Shown here in pieces: positions 44 through 20,002 of a DNA stretch of 20,002 bases (positions within the stretch are counted from its first letter, which is position 1; each line of letters starts with the position of its first letter). Position numbers and translations under genes: made by a program. The notes beneath the pieces are model-generated. The model was not told the origin of the DNA. It searched no databases and was given only the letters and a program-made list of their open reading frames with translations. The DNA is from a virus. The DNA lies in the IMG/VR virus record IMGVR_UViG_3300021165_001687, positions 1 to 20,002 of that record; one strand, written 5' to 3'.

Positions 44-694
44 ATGTTTGAGAGTACACATCAAATCATGGTTAAAAGACATTCTGATGTAATAATTGTG
101 GGCGGTGGAGCATCCGGCTGTGCAGCTGCTTATTATTTGGCGCTTGCTGGTGTGGATGTCGCACTTTTGGAACAATTTGATCTAAATACACAAGCCTCTG
201 GGAGGAATGCTGGAAGTCTGCATGGACAAATCCAATTTGAACCATTTGATGAACTAGGAGATGAGTGGGCAAAAAAATTTTTACCCGGGCTTGATTTTTT
301 AGCAGAGTCATTAAAGATTTGGAAAAATCTATCAAAGCAACTGGACACTGATTTAGAGGTTGGCGGTAGTGGTGGTTTGATGGTGGCTCAAACTGCATCT
401 GATATGAAAGCGCTGGCTAGAAAAGTAGCACTTGAAAATGAGATTGGTATCAAGTCACGCTTGATTGATCGTACTGAACTAAATGAAAAAGCTCCGTACA
501 TCTCTAAAAATATGTTGGGGGCTGCATATTGCCCTATTGAAGGGAAAGCAAATCCCCTGATAACGGCACCTGCATTTGCTGCGCGAGCTCAAGATTTAGG
601 AGCCAGTATTTTTACTGGTGTTGAAGTTTTTGAAATTTTAAAAGAACCGAATTGGATAAGGGGGATTACCCCTTTTCACCAGGTTTTGGTATGA
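44..694 (+). CDS. FAD-dependent oxidoreductase (DAO family), 3'-truncated
   Basis: This is the N-terminal part of a bacterial DAO-type flavoprotein, which would oxidise an amine or amino-acid substrate; the substrate cannot be read from this fragment. Just after Met-68 comes the FAD-binding Rossmann motif VIIVGGGASG with the downstream acidic residue in LLEQ, then an SGRNAGSLH motif typical of the family. The ATG at 68 places the Rossmann strand about seven residues from the start and is the likelier start; the ATG at 44 adds eight residues. Family-like sequence continues to about nt 650-655 (KEPNW). The remaining codons to the stop at 694 are phage DNA read out of frame, so only about 195 of an expected 370 or more residues are present. 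The fragment has GATC, AGCT and CATG sites, which the rest of the window lacks. It is probably from another genome. Confidence 0.75.
   Translation: MFESTHQIMVKRHSDVIIVGGGASGCAAAYYLALAGVDVALLEQFDLNTQASGRNAGSLHGQIQFEPFDELGDEWAKKFLPGLDFLAESLKIWKNLSKQLDTDLEVGGSGGLMVAQTASDMKALARKVALENEIGIKSRLIDRTELNEKAPYISKNMLGAAYCPIEGKANPLITAPAFAARAQDLGASIFTGVEVFEILKEPNWIRGITPFHQVLV
640..674. other. Junction between bacterial and phage DNA
   Basis: Coding content switches here from the interior of an oxidoreductase gene to the interior or start of a phage tail-completion gene in another frame. A small inverted repeat lies at the switch: AAGGGG (658-663) and CCCCTT (669-674) around a 5-nt loop. No integrase, att-like direct repeat or transposon end is visible. 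A chimeric assembly or amplification artefact is the simplest reading; a real recombination event is possible. Confidence 0.6.
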
Positions 695-1140
695 ATAGAC
701 CAGGTCAACCAAAATACACAGGGAACAAAAACGCATCAGGTGGATTAAGAGATAGTATTGAATTTCAGGTAGTAGGTGATGAAAAAAGTGGATGGGGTAT
801 TGAACTTTATATGAACAACTATTGGAGGTATGTTAACGATGGTGTATCCCCATCAAAAAAATATCCATCAAGTGGTTACATAAGTGGTGGGGGAACAAGT
901 CCGTTCATTAGTTCTTTAGTTCAATGGTTCAGTGATAAATTAGGTATCACAGGTAAAGAAGCATTGGGTAGAGCGTTTGGAGCCAGATATAATATTTGGA
1001 GATATGGGGTAGCCCCATCATATTTTTATTCAAACGCATTGGAAGAAATTATACCAGAAATGGAAGAACAATTTGGAGACCAATACTTTGAAATATTACA
1101 ACAAATAATTACAAGCAGAGTGATAAAAGACATAGTATGA
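652..1140 (+). CDS. Tail-completion / neck protein (HK97 gp10-like), probably 5'-truncated
   Basis: The 162-residue product resembles the small head-tail joining or tail-completion proteins of siphophages. Visible features are an N-terminal GFGMNRPGQPKYTG stretch, a central YWRYVNDGVSPSKKYP segment (the 'Y..v..G..P' signature of gp10-like proteins), then GGGTSPFISSLVQWF and a helical C-terminus. The only available start is a TTG at 652, inside the suspected junction, and the same frame is closed by a TGA at 631. The true N-terminus is therefore probably missing. Its stop overlaps the next start in an ATGA arrangement, which indicates translational coupling to the tail gene at 1137. The family assignment is from pattern recognition only. 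Confidence 0.6.
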   Translation: MDKGDYPFSPGFGMNRPGQPKYTGNKNASGGLRDSIEFQVVGDEKSGWGIELYMNNYWRYVNDGVSPSKKYPSSGYISGGGTSPFISSLVQWFSDKLGITGKEALGRAFGARYNIWRYGVAPSYFYSNALEEIIPEMEEQFGDQYFEILQQIITSRVIKDIV

Positions 1141-3026
1141 GTATAACGATTAATCAACAACCTTTAGGATTAACCCCTTCAAATGCGTATCATATTTACA
1201 ACGCATCTTCAACCCTAACAGGACAAACAGATTTTAGGTATGTGTTTGATGTATGGGTAAACCCATTTCAATCTACAGCAGTAAAATTAGCCCGACTAAA
1301 AGTTCAACCAAATACAAGTGGTAGGGGTATAATCAATATTGAAACCATACTACAATCTTGGGTAGTTGGAAACGCAAGAAGTGAATACCCCCAAGTAATA
1401 TCAGGGGGCACTAATTCATCAGTTACAATACCAACAGGATTTATTGCCAACAACTACAATTTTAGTTTTTCCAACGCATTTAATACCAATTCAAACTATG
1501 AATTACAACCCCATATTTTGGATTACAGAGTGTTAGTAGGTGAGCAGTATAGTGTATCAGGTGTAACGACTTTATCTATCCCCACAAACCCTTCTTTACC
1601 CACATCAACTTTTTCTACATCAGGTTCAACACAAGCATCCACTTATTCGGGAACACCAAATACAATTAACTGGTCTAACGCTGGTTCAAACGCAAGGAAC
1701 TATTCAAGTGGTATTACACAGGGGGTTACTTTTACACACACGCAGTCAGGTGGAACATTAATACAATCAGGTTCAACAACAGGTACAAGTGGTTCATACT
1801 TAGCATCCGTATCCCCATCCACAGGTGATTACTTTGTAGTCACTGAAAAATATAGTGGGGTTCAATTTGTTTGGAGATGGAATGTTGACAACACAGGTTG
1901 GACATTACTTTCAACAGTATACCCAAATAACGCAGCGAGCATTTATCAACCAACAGATATTACTATTTGGCCTGGCGTTCAGGATGTTAATAAAAATTGG
2001 AATTATTACCAAACACTTTCATCACAGTCAACAAACCCTAATGGTTTAGATAACCACCAATATTGGGAAGCATATCAATTCAAATTATTACCATATTCAC
2101 AGTTAAATAGTTATACACCTGGTAGATTTTTACAACCCTTTGGACCTGAAATAGAACAATCGGTTTTGAACGATGCTGTAACACAAGAGTTTTTCAGTGC
2201 GGAAACAAGGTATAGATGGTATCACCCTGATTGTCCATTATTAGTTTCAAATATCATAGGTCAAAACCAACTTTACAATAATCCAATATCGGGGGTTACT
2301 GTATCTTTTAGAATACCAAATCAACAATTTTTAGATGTTAGTTATTTACCTACAAGTTCAGGGGTTACACCATTGGATACTTCAGTTTACCAAGACCCTA
2401 AAACAAGAATTGGTTATTGGAATTTACACCCCCTATTCAAGGATATTCAATCACTTTACGCTGAAGATTTTACAGACATTTTTGTGAACCCTTATGGAAC
2501 AGGAGACGAACTTTCAATAACTGGTAGTGGTGTTGGTGAGATTGTAAGATACAAAATATTACCTGCTAATTGTTTGAGTGACCCTATACATTTCTTTTAC
2601 CTTACAAGAAGTGGTAGTTGGGATACATATACTTTTGACAGAAAAAATGTTAGAAAACTGAACCAGAAAAAAGATACATATTCACAAGGGGGTATTAGAA
2701 ATAACTCTATATTCAATCCATTTGATAACACCCAAAGAAAAGTAATATATGACAATGATTTAATTGAAACAGTTACGGCTCAAACGAATTGGGTAGACCC
2801 TAATGAAACCCCCATTATAGAAGAGATTTTTAATTCAACAAGAGTTTATATTATTAAGGACTATAGTTTCAATTATGATGTATCAATACCGTATCAACCT
2901 TACTTAATTCCTATTAATATTTTAGACAATTCATTTGAAGAGTTTACTGGTAGGTATGGTAAAGTATTTCAATACACTTTCAACTTTGAATATAATCCTT
3001 TCCAAATGTATAGAACCAATTTGTAA
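1137..3026 (+). CDS. Putative tail/baseplate structural protein
   Basis: The 629-residue protein resembles large structural proteins encoded before the tape measure gene in Bacteroidota phages. The N-terminal 100 residues are beta-rich (YRYVFDVWVNP-like strand, then a GRGIINIETILQSWV segment). Residues about 150-240 form a Ser/Thr/Gly-rich low-complexity insert (repeated SGST and GTSG), which may be an exposed loop. The C-terminal third is rich in aromatic residues and polar strands. There is no signal peptide, membrane segment or enzymatic motif. It starts inside the previous gene's stop (ATGA) and its own TAA overlaps the next ATG, so the three genes are translationally coupled. The exact position in the tail (hub, distal tail or wedge) is not known. 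Confidence 0.55.
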   Translation: MSITINQQPLGLTPSNAYHIYNASSTLTGQTDFRYVFDVWVNPFQSTAVKLARLKVQPNTSGRGIINIETILQSWVVGNARSEYPQVISGGTNSSVTIPTGFIANNYNFSFSNAFNTNSNYELQPHILDYRVLVGEQYSVSGVTTLSIPTNPSLPTSTFSTSGSTQASTYSGTPNTINWSNAGSNARNYSSGITQGVTFTHTQSGGTLIQSGSTTGTSGSYLASVSPSTGDYFVVTEKYSGVQFVWRWNVDNTGWTLLSTVYPNNAASIYQPTDITIWPGVQDVNKNWNYYQTLSSQSTNPNGLDNHQYWEAYQFKLLPYSQLNSYTPGRFLQPFGPEIEQSVLNDAVTQEFFSAETRYRWYHPDCPLLVSNIIGQNQLYNNPISGVTVSFRIPNQQFLDVSYLPTSSGVTPLDTSVYQDPKTRIGYWNLHPLFKDIQSLYAEDFTDIFVNPYGTGDELSITGSGVGEIVRYKILPANCLSDPIHFFYLTRSGSWDTYTFDRKNVRKLNQKKDTYSQGGIRNNSIFNPFDNTQRKVIYDNDLIETVTAQTNWVDPNETPIIEEIFNSTRVYIIKDYSFNYDVSIPYQPYLIPINILDNSFEEFTGRYGKVFQYTFNFEYNPFQMYRTNL

Positions 3027-6000
3027 TGCTTCAATTAAGAGTAATATTAGACGGAACAATAGATTTTGTAGACCTGTATGGGGATGAAGGTATTAATTTC
3101 AATTATTCATTCGCAGAGATACAGGATATAACAAAGAAAAATTCTAATTTTTCACAGAGTTTTTCTGTACCAGGTTCAAAGAAAAATAACCAAATCTTTA
3201 ACCATTTTTATGACTTAAATAGTGTCAATCTTGACTATGATGTTAGAAGGGCTATTGACGCTACTTTGGTGTTTCAGGGACAAGAGATTTTTCAGGGATA
3301 CATAAGGCTTAATAGTGTAACCACACAAAAAAGAAAGATAGTTTACAACATCACTTTCTATGCTAATGTCGGTAAAGCAATTACAAACATTGGGGATAAG
3401 TTTTTGTTTGATTTGAACTATAGTGATTTGGCACACCCCTACAATGAACAAGTAATATTAGACAGTTTATATGATACTGACTTTAGTGGTGGAACTGAAC
3501 CATATAATGATGGTAGGGTCTATTTCTTATTAGCCCAATACGGATATGAATATGATGACAACGGAAATGTTCAAACAAGTTCAACCCCCATTATTGATTA
3601 TAGAAACGGAATTGAACCTGGTTATTTTGACAGTATCAGTACACCCTTAAGATATTACTACCTAAAGCCAGCAATCCAAATTAAATGGATGTATGAACAA
3701 ATTTTCTATGAGGCTGGTTTTGATATTAATAGTGATTTTTTTAATACCGCATATTTTGAAAGGTTCTTTTTACCCTTAACATTTAATAAAGATAGTTTGT
3801 ATCTTTCACAAGCCGTTAAACCCTGTTTCGCTTTTGATAACGACAACCAATCGGGGGGTACACAAATTAATCTATCGGCTGTCACTTGGCAAGGAGCACC
3901 ATTTACAGGTGTAACTCAAAACCTTTATAGGGTAGAACAATTACCAGAAACTTGTAATAATATAAATGCTCACCAATTTAGTAACTATACTTTTAGAGTT
4001 GAAAGCGATGGTTTCTACAGGATTAAATTTACTGCTAAAGGTTTCAACAGTGAGCAGTATAGGGATAGTATAAATTTAGATGCTCTTTACAGAATTAACC
4101 TAAATGAAATTGTGACAGGTCCAAATGGTCTATCTGGTTCAACAATATTCGCATACCCAAGTATCAATACTTATTCAACACTTGGTGCTGGTTTTTCTTT
4201 TCAAGCAGGTAGAGTTTTTACAGTATATCTTTCAAGTTTGTATGATTATTCTTGGGATTTAGATATTGACCAGGGAATTGGAACAGCAATTTTTACACAA
4301 TTCGGTATGGAAATACTTGATGGTCCAAGATTTATTCTTGGTAATGTAGATTACAAGCAGGAATTTCCCCCTGATGAAATAAAACAAATTGACTTTATTA
4401 CTTCAATAAATAAAGCATTCAATCTTATTGTTGTAGAAGACAAGACAAAAGAAAATACCTTTAGAGTTGAACCATTAATTGATTTTATTGGTAAGGGGGA
4501 AACATTAGATTGGACTTACAAAGTTGATAGAGATAGTAACATACAACTTGAACCAACAACCAATATATTCAACGGAACATTAAATTACTTAAATTCACTT
4601 GACAGAGATTACGGTAATAACGAGTTTAATAAACGCTCTAATAAGATTTTTGGAACAAGACAAATTAACCTTGACCAGGACTTTAAGAACAATGATATAA
4701 CTTTTAATTTTATTACAGGAAACAGGGTTGATATAACTTTGAATAACCTGTCAGTCCCAAATGTAACAATACCTGTTTATTTTGTGACTATTGAAAATGA
4801 CAATGAAGGAATTGTTGAGTTATCTTTTAATGCGAGAAAAACTTTACCTAATTTGTCTTTTAGGGGATTAAACTTACCTGCTAAAAATGTAGGGTTTATT
4901 AACGCAAGTGGAACTACAACTGTTAATAATTTTTACCTTGAGCAGAACCTTGTTAATATGTTTCCAATATCAAATAGATATACAACATATCCATTTGGTA
5001 TAACTGGTTTTACACACGCTATCAACTTTGACAAAAGAGACAGGTTTGATTTGGTTGAGTATGACTTTACACAGAGTGAAGATTTTTATGACATTTACTA
5101 TAATGAGTATAAAGAAGATTTAACCAATGAAGAAAATAGAGTTTACAGAGCGGTGGTATATCTAACCCCCCAAGAAATTCAAAACCTTGTTGGTAACGAA
5201 AAAATCTTAATTGACAATACCCCTTTCCGTATTAATAAAATTACGAATTATTCATTATTGAAACCATCAAAAGCCAATGTTGAATTAATTAAGTTGACTG
5301 TAGATTATAGCCCCCATAGAAAAAAATGTTACACCTTAACTGCTTGTGATGACCCTGCGGATATTATTTATACAAACACTGACTTAAATTATACCATTTG
5401 GGCTTATGTAGGTAAGAAGGTAAAAATTGGGGAATTTTGTTATGAGATTGAAGAAGTAACCTGTGATGATAGTTACCCCTATGAAAGAATAGAAGTACCT
5501 TTTCAAAACAATAGTTTTATTCCTTTGTTTTATGACGATTGTGACTGTTTAATACCGATAGATGATGTTGATATTACCAATGACTTTGTAACCCCACCAG
5601 TCCCTACGCCCACACCTTCATCAGGTTCAACTTTCTACTATTACATTATTGAAAGTTGTGAGATAGCAGAACAAGCACTTATTCGTTCAACCATATTACT
5701 TCAAATCGGTAGTGGTATATTTTATAGAGGTGAGTGTTGGTTTGTATTCGCTCAAACAAGTTTGGTTAATACCAATGACTATTTCGGTCCTTATTTTGAC
5801 GACTGTGTTGATTGTATTAATAATCCGCCAACACCAACCCCCACGGCATCCATAACACCAACACCCACGCCCACAACATTGGGTTGTCCTTGTATAGAAT
5901 ATTTGGTTGAAAATAGAGAAGCATTTTCTACAAATGTTGATTATACAGATTGTTATGGAATACCACAAACAATAACTTTATTACCTGATTTTTCAATTAA

Positions 6001-6458: not shown

Positions 6459-8573
6459 ATGGCACAAAAAGAATTAGTTTTCAAAGTAAAAGTAGTCAAC
6501 GAAAGCGGGGACATTGTAGAACAAACCGCTAAGTCGTTTGAGGACTTAAATAAGTCAGCATCGTCCCTGAAAAAGGAATTAGAAAAAAGTGACTTGGGTA
6601 GTGAGAAATTTAACAAACTACAAAAGGAACTTAAGAATACTGAAGGGGCTATAGAAAGCGCTAAAAATAAAACAACCCCCCTATTACAAAGGTTCAGTGA
6701 AATGCCAGGTCTTCTTGGAACTGTATCACAATCTTTACAGGGTTTAGGTCAGGGGTTCAAGGCTTTAATTGCTAACCCTGTAGGTGCTGTCATAGCGGCT
6801 ATCGCTGTAGTGTTTGGCGTGTTGTATAAGGCGTTAACTCGTACCGATGAAGGTATGGATAAGGTCAACCGAATAATGGCTAAATTTGGGGCTATTTTAG
6901 ACCCCGTTATGGAGGCTATTGGTGCGGCTGCGTTATTGATTGCTGACTTTGTTGAAACAGCACTTGACGGGTTCACATCTTTAATTCAACTTATACCAGG
7001 TATGGGTGAAGAGATGAAGGCTGCGGCTGAAGAGGGGGGTAGATTGGCGGATGAACTTGATAGTATCCAAGAAGCGGAAAGAGACCTTGCTGTGGCTCGT
7101 AGTGAACAAAACAAACAACTCGCTAAGGCAAGGGAATTATTAAGTGATAGTAATGCGTCATTAGCAGAAAGAAAAGCGGCTCTTGCTGAAGTAAGAGCGG
7201 GTGAAGAAAAACTGGCTAAACTTGAAGAAAATACGGCTCGTAGAAAACTACAGGCTATCAAAGATGAAATTAAACTCAAAGGTGCGAGTGAAGAAAGATT
7301 AAACGCTCAGGCTCAGGCTGAAATAGCATTGAACCAAGCACAGGAAAATACCGCAGCGGTAACAAGGAAACTTAACAAACAGGATGAGCAGTTAGATAGG
7401 GAAGCAGAACAAAGACAAAAAGAACTGGCTGAAAAAAGAAAACAAAGAGTAGAGGAAAGAAAGAAACAGGCTGAAGAGGCTGCGTCTTTTGAAAAGGCTT
7501 TAGATTTAGCAGTAATCACAGACAAGTTTCAAAGAGACCAACAGATATTGGCTAATGAAAAAGCGGCACAACAAAAACAATTAAGTCAGTTAAAAGTTAC
7601 CGCAGATAAAAGGGCTGAATTACAACTACAAATAGAACAGGTTTATCAAAACAAACTGAAGGAATTACAAGATGCTAAAAAGGCTGAAGATGATAAAAAG
7701 GCTGAAGAAGACAAGAAAAAAGAACAGGAAAAAACTGCTGAAAAAATTGACGCAAGAAAAAGAGAATTAGATGCCTTACTTCAATTATCAAGTGAAAAAG
7801 GTATAGAGGGTTTAGAAGATACAAAAAGATACCTTGATGAGTTAATGGCTATTGAATTGTCTGCGGCTAATATAAGTGAGGCTGAAAAACAGGTAATAAG
7901 GGACAAATACAATAAAGCAGAAATAGATGCGGAGAAAAAGGTTTTTGATGAAAAAAAGGCACTTAATCGTAAACTTATAGATGAAGAAATTAAGATGGTT
8001 CAAGCGGCTGCTCAAGGAGCCAGTGATTTAGCAGTAATTTTTGGAGCAGAAACCGAGGCGGGTAAAGCAGCCGCAACGGCTGCTGCCATCCTTAACACCT
8101 ATGCTGGTGCGGCTAAGGCTCTTAATGATGAAACAATCCCCAATACTTTCTTGCGTATTGTAGCCGCAGGTGCGGTCATCGCAACTGGTCTAAAGCAGGT
8201 CGCTACTATTAATAAAGTTTCCACATCAATACCTACACCAAATATCAGTAGAAAACTTGCTTCAGGGGGTTATGTATCAGGTAATGGTAGTGATACAAGT
8301 GATAGTATCACAGCGTCTTTATCCAATGGTGAATTTGTAATGAATAGTCAATCCACAAGTTTGTTCCGTCCTTTACTTGAAACTATGAACCAACAGGGTA
8401 GACAATTTTCAACAGCATCTACAGGGGTTCAGGGAATATCTACTATTGATGCGGCTATGATGGGTTCATTAGGTAGTATAGGTCAAACCCCCATTAAAAC
8501 TTATGTTGTAGCCAGTGAGGTTACAACAGTCCAACAGATTGAAAGACAAAATATGTCAAGGTCTGTGATGTAA
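6459..8573 (+). CDS. Tape measure protein
   Basis: This 704-residue protein would span the tail lumen and set tail length. It has a short beta N-terminus (LVFKVKVVNESGDIVEQTAKSFEDL), a hydrophobic segment near residues 103-125 (ANPVGAVIAAIAVVFGVLY), and a second hydrophobic region around 145-165. A long charged heptad-rich coiled coil full of Ala, Glu and Lys runs roughly from 190 to 530, followed by another Ala-rich hydrophobic stretch near 565-590. It ends in a Gly/Ser region with SGGYVSGNGSDTSDS and LSNGEFVM, a C-terminal pattern common in tape measure proteins. Using the usual rule of about 0.15 nm per residue, it would fit a tail near 100 nm. At 704 residues it is a mid-sized family member. 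Confidence 0.88.
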   Translation: MAQKELVFKVKVVNESGDIVEQTAKSFEDLNKSASSLKKELEKSDLGSEKFNKLQKELKNTEGAIESAKNKTTPLLQRFSEMPGLLGTVSQSLQGLGQGFKALIANPVGAVIAAIAVVFGVLYKALTRTDEGMDKVNRIMAKFGAILDPVMEAIGAAALLIADFVETALDGFTSLIQLIPGMGEEMKAAAEEGGRLADELDSIQEAERDLAVARSEQNKQLAKARELLSDSNASLAERKAALAEVRAGEEKLAKLEENTARRKLQAIKDEIKLKGASEERLNAQAQAEIALNQAQENTAAVTRKLNKQDEQLDREAEQRQKELAEKRKQRVEERKKQAEEAASFEKALDLAVITDKFQRDQQILANEKAAQQKQLSQLKVTADKRAELQLQIEQVYQNKLKELQDAKKAEDDKKAEEDKKKEQEKTAEKIDARKRELDALLQLSSEKGIEGLEDTKRYLDELMAIELSAANISEAEKQVIRDKYNKAEIDAEKKVFDEKKALNRKLIDEEIKMVQAAAQGASDLAVIFGAETEAGKAAATAAAILNTYAGAAKALNDETIPNTFLRIVAAGAVIATGLKQVATINKVSTSIPTPNISRKLASGGYVSGNGSDTSDSITASLSNGEFVMNSQSTSLFRPLLETMNQQGRQFSTASTGVQGISTIDAAMMGSLGSIGQTPIKTYVVASEVTTVQQIERQNMSRSVM

Positions 8574-8601: not shown

Positions 8602-11163
8602 ATGCGTATTGTTGAACTTGTAATTGAAGATGAACAGGGATTTGTTGATGGGATAGCCCTTGTACAGAGACCCGCACACGAAAGTAATTGGTTGACCTTC
8701 GCAGAAGAGCAGTTGACTGAATATAGATACATTAATGAAGAATTAGGTAGTGAAAAAGGTGCTGAACTTGCGGAGTTACTTGTTCAAATTGGTGAACCTG
8801 AAGAAGACCTTTTAGACCAGGGATTTGAAATTTATAGGGTTGAAGAAATTGACCCAAAATATAGGTTCGCATCTGGTAAAGTTACAAAGTCAGTTCCAAC
8901 AGAAAACGGACCTGTAAGAATTATTAGTGACCCTAACAACACAACTGCTGACCCAATACAGGGGGCTGTTGGTGTTGAATTAGTTAGATACAAATATGTC
9001 GGTCCAAGAGATAACAAAAACAGAGATTTTTGTAGAATAATGTTGGAAGAAAATAGGGTGTTTAGAAAAGAAGATATAGACCAAATGACTATTGAAACTG
9101 CTAACCCCCAATTTGGAAATTATGATATATTCACCTGGCGTGGTTCTTTTAATTGTAGACATAAGTTCGTTAAGGTAATATACAGACCTAAAGCAGGTGA
9201 AGGTATATTGAACGATGCGTCTGTTAGAAGGGGTAGAATTGGACAGGAAGAAATACCAACAGAAAGCACTACAACCATCGCAACGGCTAACGCACAAAAT
9301 GTGGGTTATGTTAGAGAACAAATTAAAAGAAGATTAGCCAAAGGTATACCTGTTCCTGGTGTAACAATCAGTAGTGATGTTGATAACCTAACATCACAAC
9401 AAGTTTTAGATATTGGATTACAACTTGGTATTACCTTATTATTCGCAGAGGTTGGTGAAAGGGGTGCTATCAAGGATAGTAAAAAGGCTCCAAAAAGTGA
9501 TACTGCCAATAAGAGACCCACAGGTCAGGGTACTGCTCGTGGGGACGCATCGGGTAAAAGGGGTGCTGAAGTGAGTGAGGCTGTTGAAAACAACTTAAGA
9601 GAAAAAGTAAAAGAATTTAACGATAGATACGCTGATAAAGTGAAGTGGGGAAAACTTACTTTAGGAATGCTCAAGTCAGTTTTTTTAAGGGGTAAGGGAG
9701 CGTATAATGTTTCACACAGTCCTGTAGTAAAAAGTGCTGACCAATGGGCGTATGCCAGAGTCAACGCATTTATCCTATTATGGCGTTCGGGCAGACCTGG
9801 CAACGAGAAGTATGTAGGTGACAATGACCTATTACCAGCAGACCATCCAAAGTATACAACCAATTCTAAAATGGGTTTTGAAACCACAAGACAATATTGT
9901 TCAACTACACCTTGTGAACAAATGGGACAAGCACAAAAAAATTCCTGTAAGAAACAAGGGTTTAGAAATTGTTACAAGGCGGAGTTTGGTATACTTGATG
10001 TTATAGATGGTATTCCGTTGTTTGATAACTTACCAGACGCTCTTAAAATGGGTGAATTGATAGGTTGTGAAGGTTATCATACACACGACTACAACGGAGT
10101 AACAGGATATATGCCTTGTTTCACACACCCTGTAGATTTATCAATCAGTATTTCAGGTGTTGATGGTAATGGTAGTTCAGGTTGTGGATGTATGAGTGAT
10201 GATGTTGAAGCAGAATATTTTGTTGACTACCCTTTTGATGAGTGTCTAAAAGACCAAATTAAAAGATATGGTTCAAAGGAGATAGCCCAAAAAGTATGTG
10301 GGAAAATAAAAGCGTTATATGGTTCTAAATTAGAGTTTGAAACTTATGATGACTACCCCCAATATATTGTAGAAAATGCTAAAAAGGCTTTGAAGTATAT
10401 TGAAGAAACAGGAAACCCACAGGATTGTTTAACCCCCGTTGGAAGACGAAGGGTTAGTGATTTAGCATCGGGTAAACCCATATCAGGGGACATACTTAAA
10501 AGGATGAAAGCCTACGCTGACAGACACAAAAAAGATTTGTTAGCATCAAAAAGTTTTGATGACGGGTGTGGACTGCTCGCTTGGTATTCTTGGGGATTAG
10601 ATGAAACAGGAAGGGTTGAAGAATACCTTGAAAGAAAATTAAAACAAATTGAAGAAGAGTTTGAAATTCAGGTTTCAGGTTTATCCCCTTATGTAGACCA
10701 AACAGGGTTGGAAAAAAAACCAACTATTGTAGAAAGGAAATTTAATTACGACTACGAAAAACAGGAAATAACAGGTGCGGCTATTATACCAAATAAGTTC
10801 ATCTTACGAAGAGATGAAATGGGAAACCCCTACTATGTATATTTTAGTGAAGAAACAACAAAGAAATTAGCAGAGGGTTTTTTCAAACAAAAACAGGTAT
10901 CCCTAAAAGAGGCTTTGAATATTGAACACACAGATGAAAAAGCAGAAGATGCTTTTATTGTGGAAAGTTGGATAGTCAATGACCCTGAAAAGGATAAGTC
11001 AAAATCTTTAGGTTTAGATTACCCTATTGGTACTTGGGTAATAACAGCCAAAATTGATAACCCCCAATTATGGAAAGACATTAAGAACGGAAAGTATAAT
11101 GGTTTTTCAATTGAAGGTTATTTTTTAGAAAAAATAATATTTAATAATATAAACAAACAATAA
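8602..11163 (+). CDS. Multidomain capsid morphogenesis protein with XkdF-like protease domain
   Basis: The 853-residue protein strings together several head-associated segments. Residues 1-35 (VELVIEDEQGFVDGIALVQRPA) match the N-terminus of phage XkdF-type proteins. Residues about 125-195 (YVGPRDNKNRDFC, then WRGSFNCRH) resemble a Cys/His segment seen in phage minor head and protease proteins. Residues 345-395 (KWGKLTLGMLKSVFLRGKGA, then WAYARVNAFILLW) match a conserved phage domain of unknown function. Residues 480-570 are Cys-rich (GCEGYHTHD, GCGC, DECLKDQIKRYGSKEIAQKVCG). Residues 585-685 hold a helical segment with CLTPVGRRRVSDLASGKPIS. Residues 705-845 form the protease-like domain, with His775 in NIEHTD and Ser836 in GFSIEG as likely catalytic residues. 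It lies directly before the scaffold-like and capsid genes, as expected for a prohead protease. Confidence 0.72.
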   Translation: MRIVELVIEDEQGFVDGIALVQRPAHESNWLTFAEEQLTEYRYINEELGSEKGAELAELLVQIGEPEEDLLDQGFEIYRVEEIDPKYRFASGKVTKSVPTENGPVRIISDPNNTTADPIQGAVGVELVRYKYVGPRDNKNRDFCRIMLEENRVFRKEDIDQMTIETANPQFGNYDIFTWRGSFNCRHKFVKVIYRPKAGEGILNDASVRRGRIGQEEIPTESTTTIATANAQNVGYVREQIKRRLAKGIPVPGVTISSDVDNLTSQQVLDIGLQLGITLLFAEVGERGAIKDSKKAPKSDTANKRPTGQGTARGDASGKRGAEVSEAVENNLREKVKEFNDRYADKVKWGKLTLGMLKSVFLRGKGAYNVSHSPVVKSADQWAYARVNAFILLWRSGRPGNEKYVGDNDLLPADHPKYTTNSKMGFETTRQYCSTTPCEQMGQAQKNSCKKQGFRNCYKAEFGILDVIDGIPLFDNLPDALKMGELIGCEGYHTHDYNGVTGYMPCFTHPVDLSISISGVDGNGSSGCGCMSDDVEAEYFVDYPFDECLKDQIKRYGSKEIAQKVCGKIKALYGSKLEFETYDDYPQYIVENAKKALKYIEETGNPQDCLTPVGRRRVSDLASGKPISGDILKRMKAYADRHKKDLLASKSFDDGCGLLAWYSWGLDETGRVEEYLERKLKQIEEEFEIQVSGLSPYVDQTGLEKKPTIVERKFNYDYEKQEITGAAIIPNKFILRRDEMGNPYYVYFSEETTKKLAEGFFKQKQVSLKEALNIEHTDEKAEDAFIVESWIVNDPEKDKSKSLGLDYPIGTWVITAKIDNPQLWKDIKNGKYNGFSIEGYFLEKIIFNNINKQ
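11133..11150 (+). promoter_or_regulatory. AATAATATTT box inside the end of the protease gene
   Basis: AATAATATTTAATAATAT lies in the last codons of the 853-residue gene, 28 nt before the scaffold-like gene's ATG. It shares its first ten bases with the other boxes. Here it also encodes protein, which weakens the case. Confidence 0.3.
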
Positions 11164-12003: not shown

Positions 12004-12963
12004 ATGGAAAAAAAATTAAAAAAACACGGCTTTTCTTTTGATTTGAGCGGGTTAAGCACCTATACTGATGAAGTAGGGGGTTTACTCCTTGCTGAAGCAA
12101 TCACAAAGGCTAAAACCGTTGAACTTGGATTTGTTCAACAGGGTATTCAAGGAACACAGGCGATGAACTTATTGTCATCTACTTTGAATGTTCAAAATGG
12201 AACTTGCGGCTGGAATAGTTCAGGTTCAACAATTTTCACACAAAGAAATTTGGCTATCTGTCCGTTCAAGGTAAATGAGGCACTTTGTCCCCAAGACCTC
12301 GCGTCTTATTGGGCTGGTCAGTTCTTAAACAAAGGGTCTTACCACGAGGAAGTTCCCTTCGCTGAACAAATCGCATCACTTAAGGTGGAACAAATCAAAC
12401 TTTTCGTGGACACGACGCTTTGGACCGCTTTACCAGCGTCTTCAGGTGGAACGGCTTGTTTCACAGGATACAAATACATCTTCAACAATGTATCAGGTAA
12501 CACAGGTGTGAATATCGTTTCATCACCAACAACTGCTTTCACATCATCAAATATGTTACAAATTGTAGACGAGGTTATCGCTGCTGTACCTGAACCTATT
12601 CAGGAATACACTGACCTTCTTTGTATGATGAGCATCGCTAACTACAGAAAGTACACTGTAGGTCTTCGTCAGGCTAATTTCTTCCACTTTGGAACTGAAA
12701 CTGCTGAAGCGGCTACAGAATTTATCACTTTCCACCCTGGTACTAACATCCGTGTGGTAGGTGTTCCTGGTATGGTTTCAACTAACCAAGTAGTAGTAGG
12801 TCCAGCAAGTGAACTTATCATCGGTGTAACTCTTTTGGAAGACACTGAAAGATTAGAAATGTTCTACTCAAAGGACTTTGATGAAGTTCGCATTCGTGCT
12901 AATTTCGGTTTCGGCGGAAATATTCCGTTCCCTGAAAACTGGGCTTCAAACGGATTGTCCTAA
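12004..12963 (+). CDS. Major capsid protein (HK97-like)
   Basis: The 319-residue protein follows the Bacteroidota-phage major capsid pattern. It has a short basic N-terminus, then YTDEVGGLLLAEAITKAKTVELGFVQQGI, a CGWNSSGSTIFTQRNL segment, and the hallmark CPFKVNEALCPQDLASYWAGQFL. These are followed by GSYHEEVPFAEQIASLKVEQI and a C-terminal domain with PGTNIRVVGVPGM. Its length is within the family range and no long N-terminal propeptide is evident. Codon choice differs from neighbours: many C-ending codons (ATC, TTC, GAC, AAC) and CTT for Leu, as expected for the most highly expressed virion gene. The A-rich leader with almost no purine-rich Shine-Dalgarno fits a Bacteroidota host. Confidence 0.88.
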   Translation: MEKKLKKHGFSFDLSGLSTYTDEVGGLLLAEAITKAKTVELGFVQQGIQGTQAMNLLSSTLNVQNGTCGWNSSGSTIFTQRNLAICPFKVNEALCPQDLASYWAGQFLNKGSYHEEVPFAEQIASLKVEQIKLFVDTTLWTALPASSGGTACFTGYKYIFNNVSGNTGVNIVSSPTTAFTSSNMLQIVDEVIAAVPEPIQEYTDLLCMMSIANYRKYTVGLRQANFFHFGTETAEAATEFITFHPGTNIRVVGVPGMVSTNQVVVGPASELIIGVTLLEDTERLEMFYSKDFDEVRIRANFGFGGNIPFPENWASNGLS

Positions 12964-13591: not shown

Positions 13592-14815
13592 ATGCCAAAA
13601 AGAGGTATTGGAGCAAGAATAACTTGGGGACACCCACAAAAGGGTATCAAAAAATATACGCACGGACTTTTCAATGAAACACCTGAATTGTCTAAAGAAG
13701 ATAGGATGCGTATCATCGCTGAAAAGATGAGACCCTATGATAGTGAAAAAGCACTTGAAAAAGTTAATTTCATCGCAGTTGGAGCACCCTTTCAGGCATT
13801 GACCCCAACACCTTCACCAAGTGGGGGTAATGTTAGTCCCACACCCACACCCACGAGTACTCCAACACCATCGGTTGGATTTAACTGTATTTGGAATACA
13901 CAACAAAGTTTGTGGGAAAATAACAACAATGAATGGCAGGATTGTAACCCATTACCTACGCCCACACCTTCACCATCACCAAGTAGTTCGTCAACCACAC
14001 CTACGCCCACCCCTACGCCAAGTTCAACACCATTACCTGGTTACGCAGAAGCGTTGACCTATATGGACGCAGTCCTTGCTGAGGGAGGTTATTTGGATGC
14101 GTCTATGAGTGCTGCTACGATACAATTATTTACTGACTTAAATAGTGATAATTCGTTTTCTAATTTAGATGTGTTCTATCCGTTTATGGGTTCAAATATA
14201 AATGCTTTCAAGGTAAATGGTAAAAATCCTGGTACTCACAATCTAACTTATTCAGGTGGTATCGCAATAAATCCATCAGGTATTACAGGTAATGATATTA
14301 ACGGTTTCGCTGATACAAATTACAATGAAAACAACCACGCTCAGGTAAATAATTTACACATTGGTGTATATTGTAGAACAAACTTTGATGAAAGTGGATT
14401 TGATATGGGAGCGGTATCCACAGGTGTTGGAAATGATAGTAAAACATTATTAGGTCTTCGTGATGGTGATAACATATATGGTTCTGTTGAAATTTCAAAT
14501 GTTACTACTGTTCCCTCACTCACGGCTAATACTGATAGCACTGGTCATTATATTATTTCAAGGACAGGTTCTACTTCTACAACCCTATTCAAAAATGGTT
14601 CAACATTAGATACTGATACTACTGTAAGCACAGGGGAAAAAGGAACAAGAAATTACTATATCTTGGCAAGAAACAACGCAGGAACTGCTGACCTATTCAC
14701 AAAACGACAACTTACATTTGTCCATCTTGGTAAGGGTCTTACGACAACAGAAGCATCTAACCTTTCAACACACATTAACACTTTCTTAACAAGCCTAAAC
14801 AGAAACACATATTAA
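13592..14815 (+). CDS. Putative fibre/adhesin with Pro/Thr linkers and LamG-like C-terminus
   Basis: The 407-residue protein has a basic N-terminal segment of about 65 residues (MPKRGIGARITWGHPQKG), possibly a virion-attachment part. Then come a Pro/Thr linker (about 70-94), a mini-module with two cysteines (FNCIWNTQQSLWENNNNEWQDC), and a second Pro/Thr/Ser linker. The C-terminal region of about 255 residues looks like a concanavalin/LamG-type beta-sandwich found in phage adhesins: VFYPFMGSNINAFKVNGKNP, then GIAINPSGITGNDINGFADT, VYCRTNFDESG, and a final LTTTEASNLSTHINTFL helix. It is probably a receptor-binding or carbohydrate-binding surface protein. Domain identity is by pattern only. Transcription must read through the upstream terminator or start inside it. 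Confidence 0.55.
   Translation: MPKRGIGARITWGHPQKGIKKYTHGLFNETPELSKEDRMRIIAEKMRPYDSEKALEKVNFIAVGAPFQALTPTPSPSGGNVSPTPTPTSTPTPSVGFNCIWNTQQSLWENNNNEWQDCNPLPTPTPSPSPSSSSTTPTPTPTPSSTPLPGYAEALTYMDAVLAEGGYLDASMSAATIQLFTDLNSDNSFSNLDVFYPFMGSNINAFKVNGKNPGTHNLTYSGGIAINPSGITGNDINGFADTNYNENNHAQVNNLHIGVYCRTNFDESGFDMGAVSTGVGNDSKTLLGLRDGDNIYGSVEISNVTTVPSLTANTDSTGHYIISRTGSTSTTLFKNGSTLDTDTTVSTGEKGTRNYYILARNNAGTADLFTKRQLTFVHLGKGLTTTEASNLSTHINTFLTSLNRNTY
13802..14042 (+). repeat. Pro/Thr linker repeats in the fibre gene
   Basis: Two low-complexity ACN/CCN/TCN tracts (about 13802-13875 and 13947-14042) encode PTPTP linkers around a 23-residue W/C-rich module. They share the exact 18-mer at 13955-13972 with the tail gene at 5603-5620. 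Confidence 0.8.
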
Positions 14816-14816
14816 T

Positions 14817-15066: not shown

Positions 15067-15077
15067 AAAACATAACA

Positions 15078-15890
15078 ATGTCTTCATTAACATCCACACA
15101 AATTAACAACACATATCCTTCTTTGTTGAAACTTTCAACATCAACAACGGGTATAACCAGCACCCTTCAATCCGTTGAAGATGGATTAGGGGGAGATACT
15201 GGTCTAAAAATAAAACAGGACTACATCGGTGGTTCTTCACTACTTCCTTTCAAGAAACAGGATACTCAATATACTATGGGTTATGGAACGGGAACTATTA
15301 CTAGTGGTGGTGGAACTGCTTTTCCTGCTGGTTCACATAATTTAACTTTCGGTATGTTTTACTATGACAGAGGGGATATATCTTATTCCGCATTTTCATA
15401 TACCATAGGAACAACAACATCAACAAATGATGTTATTGAAATGGGTCTTTATACAACTGATTATAGTCCATACGGTTTAGTTCCAAAAGACCAACTTATT
15501 TCTTGGACATTGAGTGGTAGTGAACTTAACGCAACATTTCAAAAAAAGGTTTTACCATCAAATGTAACTTTAGAGGAAGGTGGAATTTACTATGTGATGT
15601 ATGTAATAACAAACCCAACACTTGTAACCCCTACAGTTAGATTTAGAAACACTGGTACCTCTCAAATTGGTTTTTTAAGTGCTATTTTTGCTGGTTGGGC
15701 TTTAGATACTACAAACAATGGTTATTTGAACAGTATCAAAGGACCAACATCTTTATCACAAGGTAATGTGTATTTTCAGGGAATATCAGGACCACTTCCA
15801 AGTTCATATAGTGCGGCAAGTTTTAATGGAACTATAGCGACAAGCGGTGCCCCTACTATTGGTTTTGTTTTTAACCCTGCTTATATCTAA
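15078..15890 (+). CDS. Putative fibre / virion surface protein
   Basis: The 270-residue protein begins with a motif I associate with phage structural proteins: LTSTQINNTYPSLLKLSTSTTG, then LQSVEDGLGGDTGLKI. A DGLGxDT element of this kind usually precedes fibre domains. The remainder is beta-rich with many Tyr, Gly, Ser and Thr residues and no cysteine, compatible with a jelly-roll or fibre head (FGMFYYDRGDISYSAFSYTI, YYVMYVITNPTLVTPTVRFR). No enzymatic motif is seen. It lies among the fibre genes and probably forms part of the host-recognition or capsid-surface set. Confidence 0.5.
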   Translation: MSSLTSTQINNTYPSLLKLSTSTTGITSTLQSVEDGLGGDTGLKIKQDYIGGSSLLPFKKQDTQYTMGYGTGTITSGGGTAFPAGSHNLTFGMFYYDRGDISYSAFSYTIGTTTSTNDVIEMGLYTTDYSPYGLVPKDQLISWTLSGSELNATFQKKVLPSNVTLEEGGIYYVMYVITNPTLVTPTVRFRNTGTSQIGFLSAIFAGWALDTTNNGYLNSIKGPTSLSQGNVYFQGISGPLPSSYSAASFNGTIATSGAPTIGFVFNPAYI

Positions 15891-15896
15891 AATCAA

Positions 15897-17093
15897 ATGT
15901 TATACATTAAGAGGGGACAAACCAATAATATGGTTGTGAGTGTTTCACAACACAAAACGCTTGCTAACCCCTTTTATTTATTTTCATTTCAAAATATTTT
16001 GTCTAATACCTTTGTAAGGTTTTATCCACAAAATACTTCCACAAATACAGACAGGTATGACCAGTTCACCTTTGTGGAAACAGCCACCCCACTATCGGGT
16101 CAAACACCACCACAAGAAACTTTTGAATACGAGGGACAATACTATTATTCAATTTATGAAATGGTTAGTTCAGCAACGACAAATCCCCAATATGCTACGA
16201 GTAAATTAGAAGAGGGTAGAGCATTTGTTTCGGGTCAAACAGTCGGTAGTTTTTACCCTGATACTTTTATCAGTGACAATGAAATTAATGAAAACTATAT
16301 CTTCTTAAGTGACCCTGAAGAGCGTTTGTTTGTAACCCCATCAGTAACCCCTTCACCAACCCCCACGCCTTCTATAACCCCGACAATAACAAGTACACCC
16401 ACAACCACTCCAAGCCACACACCAACAACAACACCAACAACAACCTTGACAAGCACCCCAACACATACACCAACACCTTCACCTACCACACCAGTTTCAT
16501 TACTTACTTTCAATGTTTTTTCAGGTCAAAGTCAGTATTTGGCTTGTAATAGTGGAACATCTGTTACAATATACGCACAAGATTTAGGTAACTGTGGGGG
16601 TTGTGCTCCACTGACCTGTTGGGCTTGTCTTACAACAAGTCAATTTGTTTACGCTAATTCAGGTTTGACTGAATATGTGACTGATGGTTTCTATATGAAT
16701 TATATGAGCCCACCTTCAAGTAACCCTGGTATTTGGAGAATATATGACAGTAAACCACAGGGTGGTGGATTTGCTGGTGGTTGTGTTCCGTCGCCTTCAC
16801 CAACTCCTTCATCACCTGCTAACCATCCATACTCTTGGACAGGTTATGTTTCACCAGACAGTTATTGTGAGGCCTTCAGTGGAACAAATAGGTCTGTTGT
16901 AACCCTTTATGGTAATGACAGTTGCTTTGATAACAATCTCGTTTTCTTTGATAGTCCTTCAGGTGGTAATTCAACTAACTTGTTTGGAAACTACGCATTT
17001 CAGGGATGTGGTGGTGGTAACCCTTGGCTTGGTATGATAGCAGATTATGACGGTAGGGTTCAGGTATATGCGTTAATTAGTGCTTTTTGTTAA
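15897..17093 (+). CDS. Virion protein with Pro/Thr linkers and two Cys-framed modules
   Basis: The 398-residue protein has a conserved phage N-terminal domain (residues 1-145: YIKRGQTNNMVVSVS, NPFYLFSFQN, RYDQFTFVE, YYYSIYEM) that I recognise from structural proteins of environmental phages. It is followed by a 55-residue Pro/Thr linker (146-200). Module B (about 201-296) carries LACNSGTSVTIYAQDL, several Cys, LTEYVTDGFYM and a closing GGC. A short PSPSPTPSSP linker leads to module C (about 311-398), with YCEAFSGTNRSVVTLYG, LVFFDSPSGG, LFGNYAF and a final AFC. Modules B and C share an outline with the last module of the 1137-residue tail protein. It is likely a surface-displayed binding protein; the ligand is unknown. 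Confidence 0.55.
   Translation: MLYIKRGQTNNMVVSVSQHKTLANPFYLFSFQNILSNTFVRFYPQNTSTNTDRYDQFTFVETATPLSGQTPPQETFEYEGQYYYSIYEMVSSATTNPQYATSKLEEGRAFVSGQTVGSFYPDTFISDNEINENYIFLSDPEERLFVTPSVTPSPTPTPSITPTITSTPTTTPSHTPTTTPTTTLTSTPTHTPTPSPTTPVSLLTFNVFSGQSQYLACNSGTSVTIYAQDLGNCGGCAPLTCWACLTTSQFVYANSGLTEYVTDGFYMNYMSPPSSNPGIWRIYDSKPQGGGFAGGCVPSPSPTPSSPANHPYSWTGYVSPDSYCEAFSGTNRSVVTLYGNDSCFDNNLVFFDSPSGGNSTNLFGNYAFQGCGGGNPWLGMIADYDGRVQVYALISAFC
16332..16496 (+). repeat. Pro/Thr linker repeat
   Basis: This low-complexity run of ACN and CCN codons encodes 55 residues that are almost only Pro, Thr and Ser. It is the longest such linker in the window. Slippage or recombination among these tracts could change linker length. 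Confidence 0.85.
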
Positions 17094-17109
17094 GTGTAAA
17101 AGTCAAAGA

Positions 17110-17127
17110 AATAATATTTAGAAATAG
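17110..17127 (+). promoter_or_regulatory. AATAATATTTAG box before the portal gene
   Basis: AATAATATTTAGAAATAG abuts the ATG at 17128 and matches the box at 8584-8601 at 16 of 18 positions with identical spacing. Confidence 0.4.
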
Positions 17128-18216
17128 ATGAGTACAGAAATAAAAAGTTTCCAATTTGAGACAGTTCAATTACCTACTTTTGAAGAAATAATTAAAAGTA
17201 GAGATTGGGTATTTTTTGGTGGGGATAACTTATGGCCTCAACATAGTGTTCAATTATACAATTATTCAAGTATCAACAGAGCCTGTATAAACGCTAAAAG
17301 AGATGCGGTATGGGGAAAACAACTTTTGGTTGACGGTGTTGATGCTAATTTGGTGATGGCTAATTCAAGTCAAACCTTAAGAGAAGTATACAACAAAGCC
17401 GCTATGGATTTGGTATTACACAATGGATTTTCATTGAATACCGTATTAAGACAAGACAGGGAAGGTATTAGTGAATTTTACCACATTGACTTTACCAAAA
17501 TTAGAAGTGGTAAGACAGACATTTTTGACCTTGTAAAAGATTTTTATTATTGTACTGATTGGAGTAACATTAGATTATACAAGCCAAGGATTTTACCAGC
17601 CTTTAATCTTAACGCTGAAGAACCATCACAAGTTTGGTATTACAAAAATTACCAACCCGCTCAAACTTACTATCCTATTAACGATTGGATTGGTGCCAGA
17701 GTTTCTTGTGAAATTGATATTAACATCAAAAACTTTCACCTACAAAACTTACAGAACGGATTTTTCGGTTCTGTATTAATCGCTATGAATAATGGTATTC
17801 CAAGTGAAGAAGAGCGTGAAATGATATACAGACATTTGGTTGACAAGTATGGTGGAAGTAACCACGCTGGTTCAATTTATTTGACCTTCAGTGATGATAA
17901 AGAACACGAGCCAACAATAACCCCCATTGGAATAAATAATAGTGATACTTTTTATTCTGTATTAGATGAACAGATTAGAAATGTCGTGTTAACATCTCAT
18001 AGGATAACCAGCCCAAAATTAGTCGGTATTGAGACGCCAGGACAATTAGGCAGTAAAGATGAAATTATGGAAGGTTGGGCACACTTTTTAGCAACGGTTA
18101 TTGTTCCACTACAGGAACAGATTATTGTAGAGTTTGAAAAGATATTATTTTTAAGGGATAAAAGACCCCATAAAATTACTGTTGTTCAAAACGACATTTT
18201 ATTACCAGGAGAATAA
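17128..18216 (+). CDS. Portal protein
   Basis: The 362-residue protein would form the dodecameric ring at the capsid vertex through which DNA enters and leaves. Portal-like features are FGGDNLWPQHSVQLYNYSSINRACINAKRDAVWGKQL near the N-terminus, a central YKNYQPAQTYYPINDWIGARVSCEIDI, then NGIPSEEEREMIYRHLVDKYGG, a central SDTFYSVLDEQIRNVVLTSHRITSPKL (typical of the clip/stem region), and EIMEGWAHFLATVIVPLQEQI. It is on the short side for a portal but has both wing and stem-like segments. Its TAA overlaps the ATG of the adaptor gene (TAATG), coupling the two neck components. Its position after the capsid and fibre genes, not before them, is unusual. Confidence 0.78.
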   Translation: MSTEIKSFQFETVQLPTFEEIIKSRDWVFFGGDNLWPQHSVQLYNYSSINRACINAKRDAVWGKQLLVDGVDANLVMANSSQTLREVYNKAAMDLVLHNGFSLNTVLRQDREGISEFYHIDFTKIRSGKTDIFDLVKDFYYCTDWSNIRLYKPRILPAFNLNAEEPSQVWYYKNYQPAQTYYPINDWIGARVSCEIDINIKNFHLQNLQNGFFGSVLIAMNNGIPSEEEREMIYRHLVDKYGGSNHAGSIYLTFSDDKEHEPTITPIGINNSDTFYSVLDEQIRNVVLTSHRITSPKLVGIETPGQLGSKDEIMEGWAHFLATVIVPLQEQIIVEFEKILFLRDKRPHKITVVQNDILLPGE

Positions 18217-18806
18217 TGGGAGTTTTACTTGTATCATCCGCCAAATTAAAAGCGTTCAGTCAGGTTAACGACAATGTAGATGATGCCCTGCTTTTGAGCA
18301 GCATTCAGGTTAGTCAGGACATAGGCTTGCAAACTCTACTCTCAACGACCTTCTACCAACATATCTTAAATGCGGTTCAAACAAACACACTGACAAACGC
18401 TGAAGATACATTGTTACAAGATTACATACAACCTTACTTATTGTGGAGAAGTGTTTGGGAAGCACTACCTACCATCTTTATGCGTATAATGAATAAGTCA
18501 GTTATAGTTGGACAAACAGAACAGGGAAACCCTATAGACCAAAGACAACTTACTTATTTAAGAAATGTTCATCAGGATAGATGGGGTTTTTACGCACAAA
18601 GATTGATGGATTATATTAAAAATAATCCTGCTGATTTTCCATTATATTTTTCTTGGAACAGCACAGACGGAATGCCCCCATCCAAAGAAAACTATTTTGG
18701 TGGTATTCATATCAGTCCTGGTAGAAGAAGATTACCGCCAGTTGGTGTTAGAGGTTGGGCTGACCCTACAGGTCCTAACTGTTGTAGTGACGATGTAAGT
18801 TATTAA
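18216..18806 (+). CDS. Head-tail adaptor / connector protein
   Basis: The 196-residue, mainly helical protein fits the head-tail adaptors of Bacteroidota phages. It has an N-terminal SSAKLKAFSQVNDNVDDALLLSSIQVSQDIGLQTLL segment and a DYIQPYLLWRSVWEALPTIF helix typical of these adaptors, then QLTYLRNVHQDRWGFYAQRLMDYIK. The C-terminal tail (FGGIHISPGRRRLPPVG) is Gly/Pro/Arg-rich and may contact the portal. The start overlaps the portal stop and has AGGAG a few bases upstream, one of the few good Shine-Dalgarno sequences here. Translational coupling to the portal agrees with a role in the neck. Confidence 0.65.
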   Translation: MGVLLVSSAKLKAFSQVNDNVDDALLLSSIQVSQDIGLQTLLSTTFYQHILNAVQTNTLTNAEDTLLQDYIQPYLLWRSVWEALPTIFMRIMNKSVIVGQTEQGNPIDQRQLTYLRNVHQDRWGFYAQRLMDYIKNNPADFPLYFSWNSTDGMPPSKENYFGGIHISPGRRRLPPVGVRGWADPTGPNCCSDDVSY

Positions 18807-18809
18807 AGT

Positions 18810-19109: not shown

Positions 19110-19221
19110 AGACCAAAGAAGGTTTATTTCCCGCTGTATCAAAGAAATTCACAAGGAATATGATAGAGCACAAACAATAGCAATTTGTTATACTAATTGG
19201 AGGGAAAGAAATAAGAAATAA
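19081..19221 (+). CDS. Microprotein with phage FISRC...AICY motif
   Basis: This 46-codon gene starts at GTG, the only plausible start, since a TAA closes the frame at 19060-19062. The product begins PIPKPKPTEDQRRFISRCI and ends QTIAICYTNWRERNKK. This 'P.PKP.E...FI.RC......AICY..W' pattern is one I know as a short conserved segment associated with phage head proteases and portal neighbourhoods. Here it stands alone. The two cysteines (19 and 36) are well placed for metal or disulfide pairing. It overlaps the upstream gene by 29 nt in another frame. The function is unknown; the conserved motif makes real coding likely. Confidence 0.65.
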   Translation: MPIPKPKPTEDQRRFISRCIKEIHKEYDRAQTIAICYTNWRERNKK

Positions 19222-19247
19222 CCCCCTTTATTTCAATTCTAAAGGAC

Positions 19248-19499
19248 TTAAATGTCCCTACCATATCTTTCCTTCACCCGCTCCCTGAACTGTTCGTATA
19301 CGGGTTTTTCAATATCATACCCAAGTTCGTGTAATATAAGTTTTGAATATGCTTCAAAGTGAGCATCTTGTGGCAACCAAGTACCGTTGTTTCTTAATTC
19401 CAAACAGGGTAAACATCTTTTTGTTATACCTTTAGCATTTTCCTTAAATTCCTGTTCTGGTTTTAGTTCACCACAGGTTATACAAATACGATAGTTCAT
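19248..19499 (-). CDS. Small zinc-ribbon protein, unknown function
   Basis: This is the only clear minus-strand gene. The 83-residue product has two CxxC pairs (Cys6/Cys9 and Cys29/Cys32) in CITCGELKPEQEFKENAKG...CLPC, the zinc knuckle found at the N-terminus of many phage HNH-type or DNA-binding proteins. The C-terminal half is helical (FEAYSKLILHELGYD, then YEQFRERVKERYG). No HNH catalytic triad follows, so it is not evidently a nuclease; a DNA-binding regulator is possible. Its A-rich leader (19500-19530) drives transcription away from the nucleotidyltransferase gene. It converges on the microprotein with 26 nt between stop codons. Confidence 0.6.
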   Translation of the reverse strand: MNYRICITCGELKPEQEFKENAKGITKRCLPCLELRNNGTWLPQDAHFEAYSKLILHELGYDIEKPVYEQFRERVKERYGRDI

Positions 19500-19598
19500 C
19501 TTTTTTTTAGTTTAGATATATTTATTAAATAGGGGGGTAAGGTTATTTATTCTATTCTTATTGGTTTTCTTTTCAGTGAGCCCCCCTTTTATTAAGTT
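19500..19598. promoter_or_regulatory. Divergent intergenic region with long-loop G/C inverted repeat
   Basis: This 99-bp region separates the divergent zinc-ribbon and nucleotidyltransferase genes and must carry start signals for one or both. AGGGGGG (19531-19537) can pair with CCCCCCT (19581-19587) across a pyrimidine-rich 43-nt loop, followed by TTTT. The paired arm ends 11 nt before the ATG at 19599. It could act as a terminator/attenuator for rightward transcription or as a leader structure. No clear -7/-33 Bacteroidota promoter is seen. Confidence 0.4.
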
Positions 19599-19988
19599 AT
19601 GACATTACTACCAGAATATCTACAATTAAAAGGTCCTTTACAAATAAGGAAAAAACCAAATAATCCTAATATTCTTAATTTGTATAAGTGGTATGATGAA
19701 AATAGTCACTTACCTTTATTCCAATACTACGATGTGTTTTTAGTGGGTTCTATGTTACAAGATATAGATTACCCCAACGACATAGATATAATCGTTCAGG
19801 GGTCAAATAAATACCCAAATTACATATACCTTGACCTTGTTGAAGCAGCCAAGATTGGTATGATAGATTATGGACTACCATTGGATATTCTTTATTGTCC
19901 TGATATAAGTTTTTTTGACCTTGAAGTGATTAAAGAAAACCAAAGGGAATTTAAGGCTTATAGTTTTTATGACTTTGCCCAAATGTAG
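19599..19988 (+). CDS. Nucleotidyltransferase-fold protein
   Basis: The 129-residue protein carries the pol-beta-type nucleotidyltransferase signature: VFLVGSMLQDIDYPNDIDIIV gives G-S, nine residues, D-I-D, and a third candidate metal-binding acid follows in LPLDILY. The size and single domain fit a minimal nucleotidyltransferase. Such enzymes transfer nucleotides to proteins, RNA or small molecules; the substrate here is unknown, and no HEPN partner is adjacent. It follows a divergent control region and is outside the structural operon, so it may act in host takeover or defence interaction. Its stop codon lies in the loop of a perfect inverted repeat. Confidence 0.68.
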   Translation: MTLLPEYLQLKGPLQIRKKPNNPNILNLYKWYDENSHLPLFQYYDVFLVGSMLQDIDYPNDIDIIVQGSNKYPNYIYLDLVEAAKIGMIDYGLPLDILYCPDISFFDLEVIKENQREFKAYSFYDFAQM

Positions 19989-20002
19989 TCAAAGTCATAA
20001 AA
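19965..20002. repeat. 13-bp perfect inverted repeat at the end of the window
   Basis: TTTTATGACTTTG (19965-19977) is exactly complementary to CAAAGTCATAAAA (19990-20002), with a 12-nt loop that contains the nucleotidyltransferase stop codon. On the minus strand the stem is followed by at least one more T, so it could terminate transcription arriving from the right. The last base of the window is the last base of the arm. Confidence 0.8.

Follow-up and report, generated by a model that had tools for sequence, protein, structure and literature searches.

The window, by which we mean the whole stretch of DNA that was analysed, comprises 20,002 bases and is the whole of an IMG/VR virus record. 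Its features are collected in Table 1. Judged by its predicted genes (portal, protease, and tape measure in the window, and terminase in relatives), it is a tailed phage. The window probably covers the greater part of the structural half of a Bacteroidota phage genome of roughly 28 kb. The left end of the record encodes the first part of a bacterial oxidoreductase and has a normal content of the motifs that are avoided in the rest of the window, and about 20-30 residues present at the N-terminus in three relatives are missing from the first viral gene. The occurrence of a bacterial fragment with normal site content beside a truncated viral gene indicates that the junction near position 655 is most likely an assembly chimera. 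The site avoidance marks the position of this junction independently: 25 sites of the 15 motifs described below are found in positions 1-655 and four in the next 19,347 bases, so that the boundary set at position 656 in the original prediction is sharp. Runs of Thr-Pro repeats (TPTPTP) are present in three open reading frames of the virion region (3026-6439, 13592-14815, and 15897-17093).

Table 1. Features of the window, with coordinates, strand, and the basis of each assignment or further details.
Feature	Position	Strand	Basis or details
Bacterial FAD-dependent oxidoreductase fragment, cut at junction	1..655	+	Domain match: DAO, PF01266, E = 4e-37
Viral tail-region gene, 5'-truncated by junction	652..1140	+	Start codon shown is not genuine
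Viral part with eliminated motifs	656..20002	.	AGCT, GATC, TGCA, CTAG, ACGT, TCGA, CATG, CCGG, GANTC, GANNTC, TCNGA, AGWCT, TTTAAA, TATATA, TTATAA
Large tail-region protein, 1137 aa	3026..6439	+	N-terminus of a relative's equivalent gene matches phrog_38559
Tail tape-measure protein	6459..8573	+	phrog_25241, E = 7e-14
Head protein with C-terminal XkdF-like protease domain (Peptidase_S78_2)	8602..11163	+	
Lone surviving GANTC	9758..9762	.	
Probable major capsid protein	12004..12963	+	phrog_11320 (function not annotated); inferred from position
Lone surviving GANNTC	12295..12300	.	
Lone surviving CTAG	15301..15304	.	
Portal protein	17128..18216	+	Basis of the family tree
DUF6712 protein	18216..18806	+	PF20459, E = 9e-16
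Lone surviving TGCA	18328..18331	.	
Small HNH / endonuclease VII-like protein	19248..19499	-	Antisense to its neighbours

The original prediction held that GATC is absent from the viral part. An exact count bears this out: the only GATC sites of the window are at positions 179 and 467, and none is found in 656-20002, where 64 are expected from base composition, 41 under a maximal-order Markov model, and 46 under a shuffle of synonymous codons that retains every protein and its codon usage. In the viral genes, Asp before a codon starting with C is encoded 40 times by GAC and never by GAT, whereas before A, G, or T there are 89 GAC and 215 GAT codons (Fisher P = 1e-19). The codon pattern had thus been recognized correctly, although several of the Asp coordinates given for it are a few bases off and there is no GAC at 4264. 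The nearest relative (G001) retains GATC and shows no such effect for Asp (56 GAT and 25 GAC before C).

GATC is one of about 15 palindromic motifs that have been eliminated from 656-20002. Under a null model that preserves proteins and codon usage, four sites remain versus about 510 expected, the latter being the sum of the motifs' separate expectations. Observed and expected numbers under the codon shuffle are 0/72 for AGCT, 1/47 for TGCA, 1/41 for CTAG, 0/37 for ACGT, 0/34 for TCGA, 0/27 for CATG, and 0/19 for CCGG. The gapped palindromes GANTC (1/39), GANNTC (1/46), and TCNGA (0/46) and the AT-rich hexamers TTTAAA (0/17), TATATA (0/13), and TTATAA (0/11) are similarly affected. These motifs were found in a greedy search that keeps previously picked motifs absent from the null while seeking the next one and that takes palindromes before asymmetric words. 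The search returned 16 palindromic motifs, of which 15 were counted; YCYRGR (2/31), a composite seen in several phages, was set aside because of the overlap of its components with CCGG, CTAG, and others. The same search returned no motif from six codon-shuffled copies of the window. The 15 or so motifs have observed-to-expected ratios below 0.1 at expectations of 11-73. A published survey of phages regarded a site as avoided at a ratio of 0.1 with an expectation above 15 (PMC6286503), and TATATA and TTATAA fall short of this on expectation. The asymmetric words ATKATC (2/23) and MGCAAA (2/22) are too weakly depleted in the window to be claimed. GTAC (24/76), CTNAG (8/44), and TCNNGA (13/51) are partly depleted in 656-20002, with no obvious patch; these could be losses that are under way or relaxing.

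The breadth of the loss bears on the cause that was first proposed, a single GATC-specific system, either restriction at GATC or avoidance of a Dam-like methylation signal. GATC is wholly absent, its effect on the Asp codons is strong, and no other motif has been eliminated as often in the family (45 of 79 testable relatives). However, under this explanation GATC should be depleted with other palindromes at normal levels, and no fewer than 14 other motifs are equally depleted in the window; moreover, the nearest relative has GATC at the expected level. Because the other motifs are missing, the GATC system is already refuted as the single cause, and we consider it highly improbable; the more general part of the proposal, restriction evasion, remains the best explanation. 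The chimeric left end of the contig might suggest that the losses arose artificially, through assembly, library preparation, or composition. However, the 25 sites mentioned above lie in the foreign 655 bases, the codon-shuffled copies show no loss, and relatives from other metagenomes show similar yet different losses. As these relatives stem from independent samples, an artefact is already excluded, and its probability is vanishingly small.

The portal searches in IMG/VR yielded 84 related loci, which were placed on a tree together with the window. The relatives, with portals 53-74% identical to that of the window, are similarly depleted but in different sets of motifs. In the clade of the window, all members long enough to be judged are palindrome-depleted, and the set is specific to the lineage. 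The nearest relative (G001, portal 74%) lacks or nearly lacks GTAC (0/89), GTNNAC (0/78), CANTG (1/74), CTNAG (1/69), and GGCC (0/22). A second relative, G003, is without TCGA, TGCA, ACGT, GATC, AGCT, CTAG, CATG, CGCG, CTWAG, and TCSGA, and a third, G005, without TTAA, GTAC, and ACNGT. Near-identical phages from different samples, such as L005 and L006, have most of the missing set in common. In the more distant relatives G011, G012, G013, and G014, one, two, or no motifs are eliminated, with at most one in G012 and G014; several of the distant relatives show no loss. In G013 (L110 and L111) the one eliminated motif is very degenerate (GWWWWC, 0/86), and GANNTC is also depleted (3/52). The motif GAKMTC in G004 was dropped from consideration, as GATC and AGCT account for it.

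The losses follow exact recognition sequences, including the centre base and the spacing. In the window, AGWCT is absent (0/28) whereas AGSCT is found 31 times with 17 expected; in G003, CTWAG (0/33) contrasts with CTSAG (48/35), and TCSGA (0/32) with TCWGA (37/35). When half-sites separated by gaps of 0-12 were surveyed in 29 sequences, split palindromes were depleted only at gaps of 0, 1, 2, 6, and 7 and never at 3-5 or 8-12; the long-gap motifs are GAN6TC, CAN6TG, and GAN7TC. An alternative explanation is a general aversion to palindromes, caused by hairpins, cruciforms, or a structure-specific nuclease and independent of specific enzymes. It would account for the observations that the window is depleted of most 4-bp palindromes with G or C and that the highest-scoring depleted 4-mers are palindromes. 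However, AATT, ATAT, TATA, TTAA, and GTNAC occur in the window at normal levels, close relatives differ in their sets, and the asymmetric words GAAGA and RGGATG, among others, are lost in some relatives as well. A depletion based on structure would also need to track exact sequence and spacing, with centre bases discriminated and some gaps never hit. We therefore regard a general aversion to palindromes as very unlikely.

The elimination of sites extends to the protein sequence. Met followed by His or Gln is encoded by ATGCA, so that every choice of codon gives TGCA; likewise, Thr-Val forces ACNGT, Val-Thr forces GTNAC, and His or Gln before Trp or Cys forces CANTG. In phages that lack the respective motif, the forced pairs M[HQ], TV, VT, and [HQ][WC] are observed 1, 2, 1, and 2 times with 53, 61, 40, and 29 expected from composition, although it is the lack of the motif that defines these groups, so that the scarcity of the forcing pair follows. 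In relatives that keep the motif the pairs reach 0.7-0.9 of expectation. Composition alone would demand dozens of sites that are removable only by changing an amino acid. The numbers for the window alone are small: Met-His/Gln is not found versus 4.5 expected, and the reversed pair occurs five times. The reversed pair is likewise reduced in the cases of GTNAC and ACNGT, because some phages are without both motifs. The original prediction attributed the absence of GATC to codon choice, which holds for Asp but is too narrow for the family, where elimination has gone further and amino acid pairs have been lost.

Phages often drift toward the word usage of their host, and the phage could mirror a host whose own genome lost these words to its restriction systems. 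In line with this, restriction sites are reported to be under-represented in host genomes as well (PMC4687349). However, in the phages the words have fallen to near zero, the site-forcing dipeptides have gone too, which a drift in word usage could hardly bring about, and close relatives differ sharply. Mirroring of the host thus appears unlikely, if less far-fetched than a structural or an artefactual origin.

Several properties point to Bacteroidota as the likely hosts. Only one of 16 starts in the window has a strong Shine-Dalgarno site, and the A fraction of the leaders is 0.50; this pattern resembles that of Flavobacterium phage 11b and Nonlabens phage P12024S, unlike that of T7, phi29, and phage K. 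The nearest cultured relative of the window by portal is also P12024S (Inhavirus; 25% identical, E = 2e-25), which provides a homologue in a phage of a known Bacteroidota host. It is the paucity of Shine-Dalgarno sites and the A-rich leaders, together with this portal match, that make a Bacteroidota host likely from sequence. P12024S has, like the family, a sigma-like gene upstream of the terminase and nearly no Shine-Dalgarno sites; in relatives of the window, the gene (L090:5558-6058 and similar genes) encodes a small sigma-factor-like protein (phrog_1740). P12024S differs in having only two eliminated motifs (GGCC and CTSAG), and it has a methyltransferase gene. Among the relatives, G002 has an N6_N4_Mtase DNA methyltransferase gene directly before the terminase (L093:3715-4707), and G008, G009, and G010 also carry a DNA methyltransferase gene. 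The metagenomes behind several relatives belong to a study of freshwater bacterioplankton, and the window is probably from a freshwater Bacteroidota phage. Searches of genome contigs with the portal alignment or with the methyltransferase of a relative found no host genome. The portal gave two weak matches (26%) to plasmids, the listed records contained no Bacteroidota-specific match for the terminase of a relative, a small gene of a relative had no match in phage records, and no tRNA genes that could indicate the host were found.

Applied to cultured phages at the same length, the same test identified two eliminated motifs in Nonlabens P12024S, two in H. pylori phage KHP30, six in phi29, five in T7, one in phage K, and none in Microcystis phage Ma-LMM01 or Flavobacterium phage 11b. 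Some of the motifs that the finder recovers are recognized by known Type II enzymes, namely GATC (phage K and T7), CCWGG (T7), and GGCC (phi29). In T7 (GATC, CCWGG, and others), phi29 (GGCC, CGCG, and others), and phage K (GATC) the depletion has the same sign and concerns the same kind of motif under the same test, but one to six motifs are affected in these phages versus 15 or more in the window. Non-temperate dsDNA phages show the same near-complete, strand-symmetric loss of short palindromes, most of them sites of orthodox Type II systems, largely through codon choice (PMC6286503). Compared with the avoidance surveyed there, the window is distinguished by about 15 motifs in 19 kb, versus 0-6 in the reference phages that we tested, and the family by sets that turn over among close relatives and by the loss of forced dipeptides. 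A literature search, incomplete in coverage, returned no paper on phages with avoidance this broad. Avoidance of restriction sites is a known strategy; its extent here is extreme and without a reported equal in the literature searched.

We consider it very probable that the losses reflect evasion of many orthodox Type II restriction systems encountered in Bacteroidota hosts, and we infer that restriction enzymes are the agent and that the missing set is the sum over several hosts. Orthodox Type II systems are suggested because the losses are exact in sequence and spacing and vary between lineages, and because in a survey of phages elimination concerned almost only the sites of orthodox Type II systems (Rusinov et al. 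2018, PMC6286503). Many such endonucleases, met over time in different host strains or species, would select on the phage, and recognition sites would be removed one specificity after another: by a synonymous codon where possible and, where two amino acids force the site, by loss of the pair. The missing set of each lineage would then be a record of the restriction repertoires of its hosts. In one Flavobacterium species, strains have about 10 methyltransferases each, and 17 strains have 55 in total, with a nuclease as partner for 50 of them (PMC11837570); by passing from strain to strain, a phage could therefore encounter more specificities than are present in one cell. Three points count against restriction evasion: at least 15 simultaneous specificities exceed the 0-6 of the reference phages, with two in the phage of restriction-rich H. 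pylori; the host searches found no genome in which an enzyme could be matched to any missing motif; and for AGWCT, GANNTC, TATATA, GAN6TC, CAN6TG, and GAN7TC we know of no matching enzyme.

A phage has usually been shown to avoid one or a few sites; here the avoidance of many motifs is near total, sister phages differ in the motifs they lack, and the proteins that can be encoded are visibly limited. This limit on protein sequence is a measurable cost of restriction evasion. On balance, we favor the broader notion that the small Bacteroidota phages of an entire clade each purge the recognition sites of some 8-27 restriction specificities, up to the point of banned dipeptides, and that the missing words may amount to a list of the enzymes of uncultured hosts, including specificities for which no enzyme is known to us, such as GAN6TC, CAN6TG, GAN7TC, and AGWCT. 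Metagenomic phage sequences could become a read-out of the restriction enzymes of uncultured bacteria, known and unknown, and comparing the missing words with host methylation motifs could provide a route for matching phages to their hosts.
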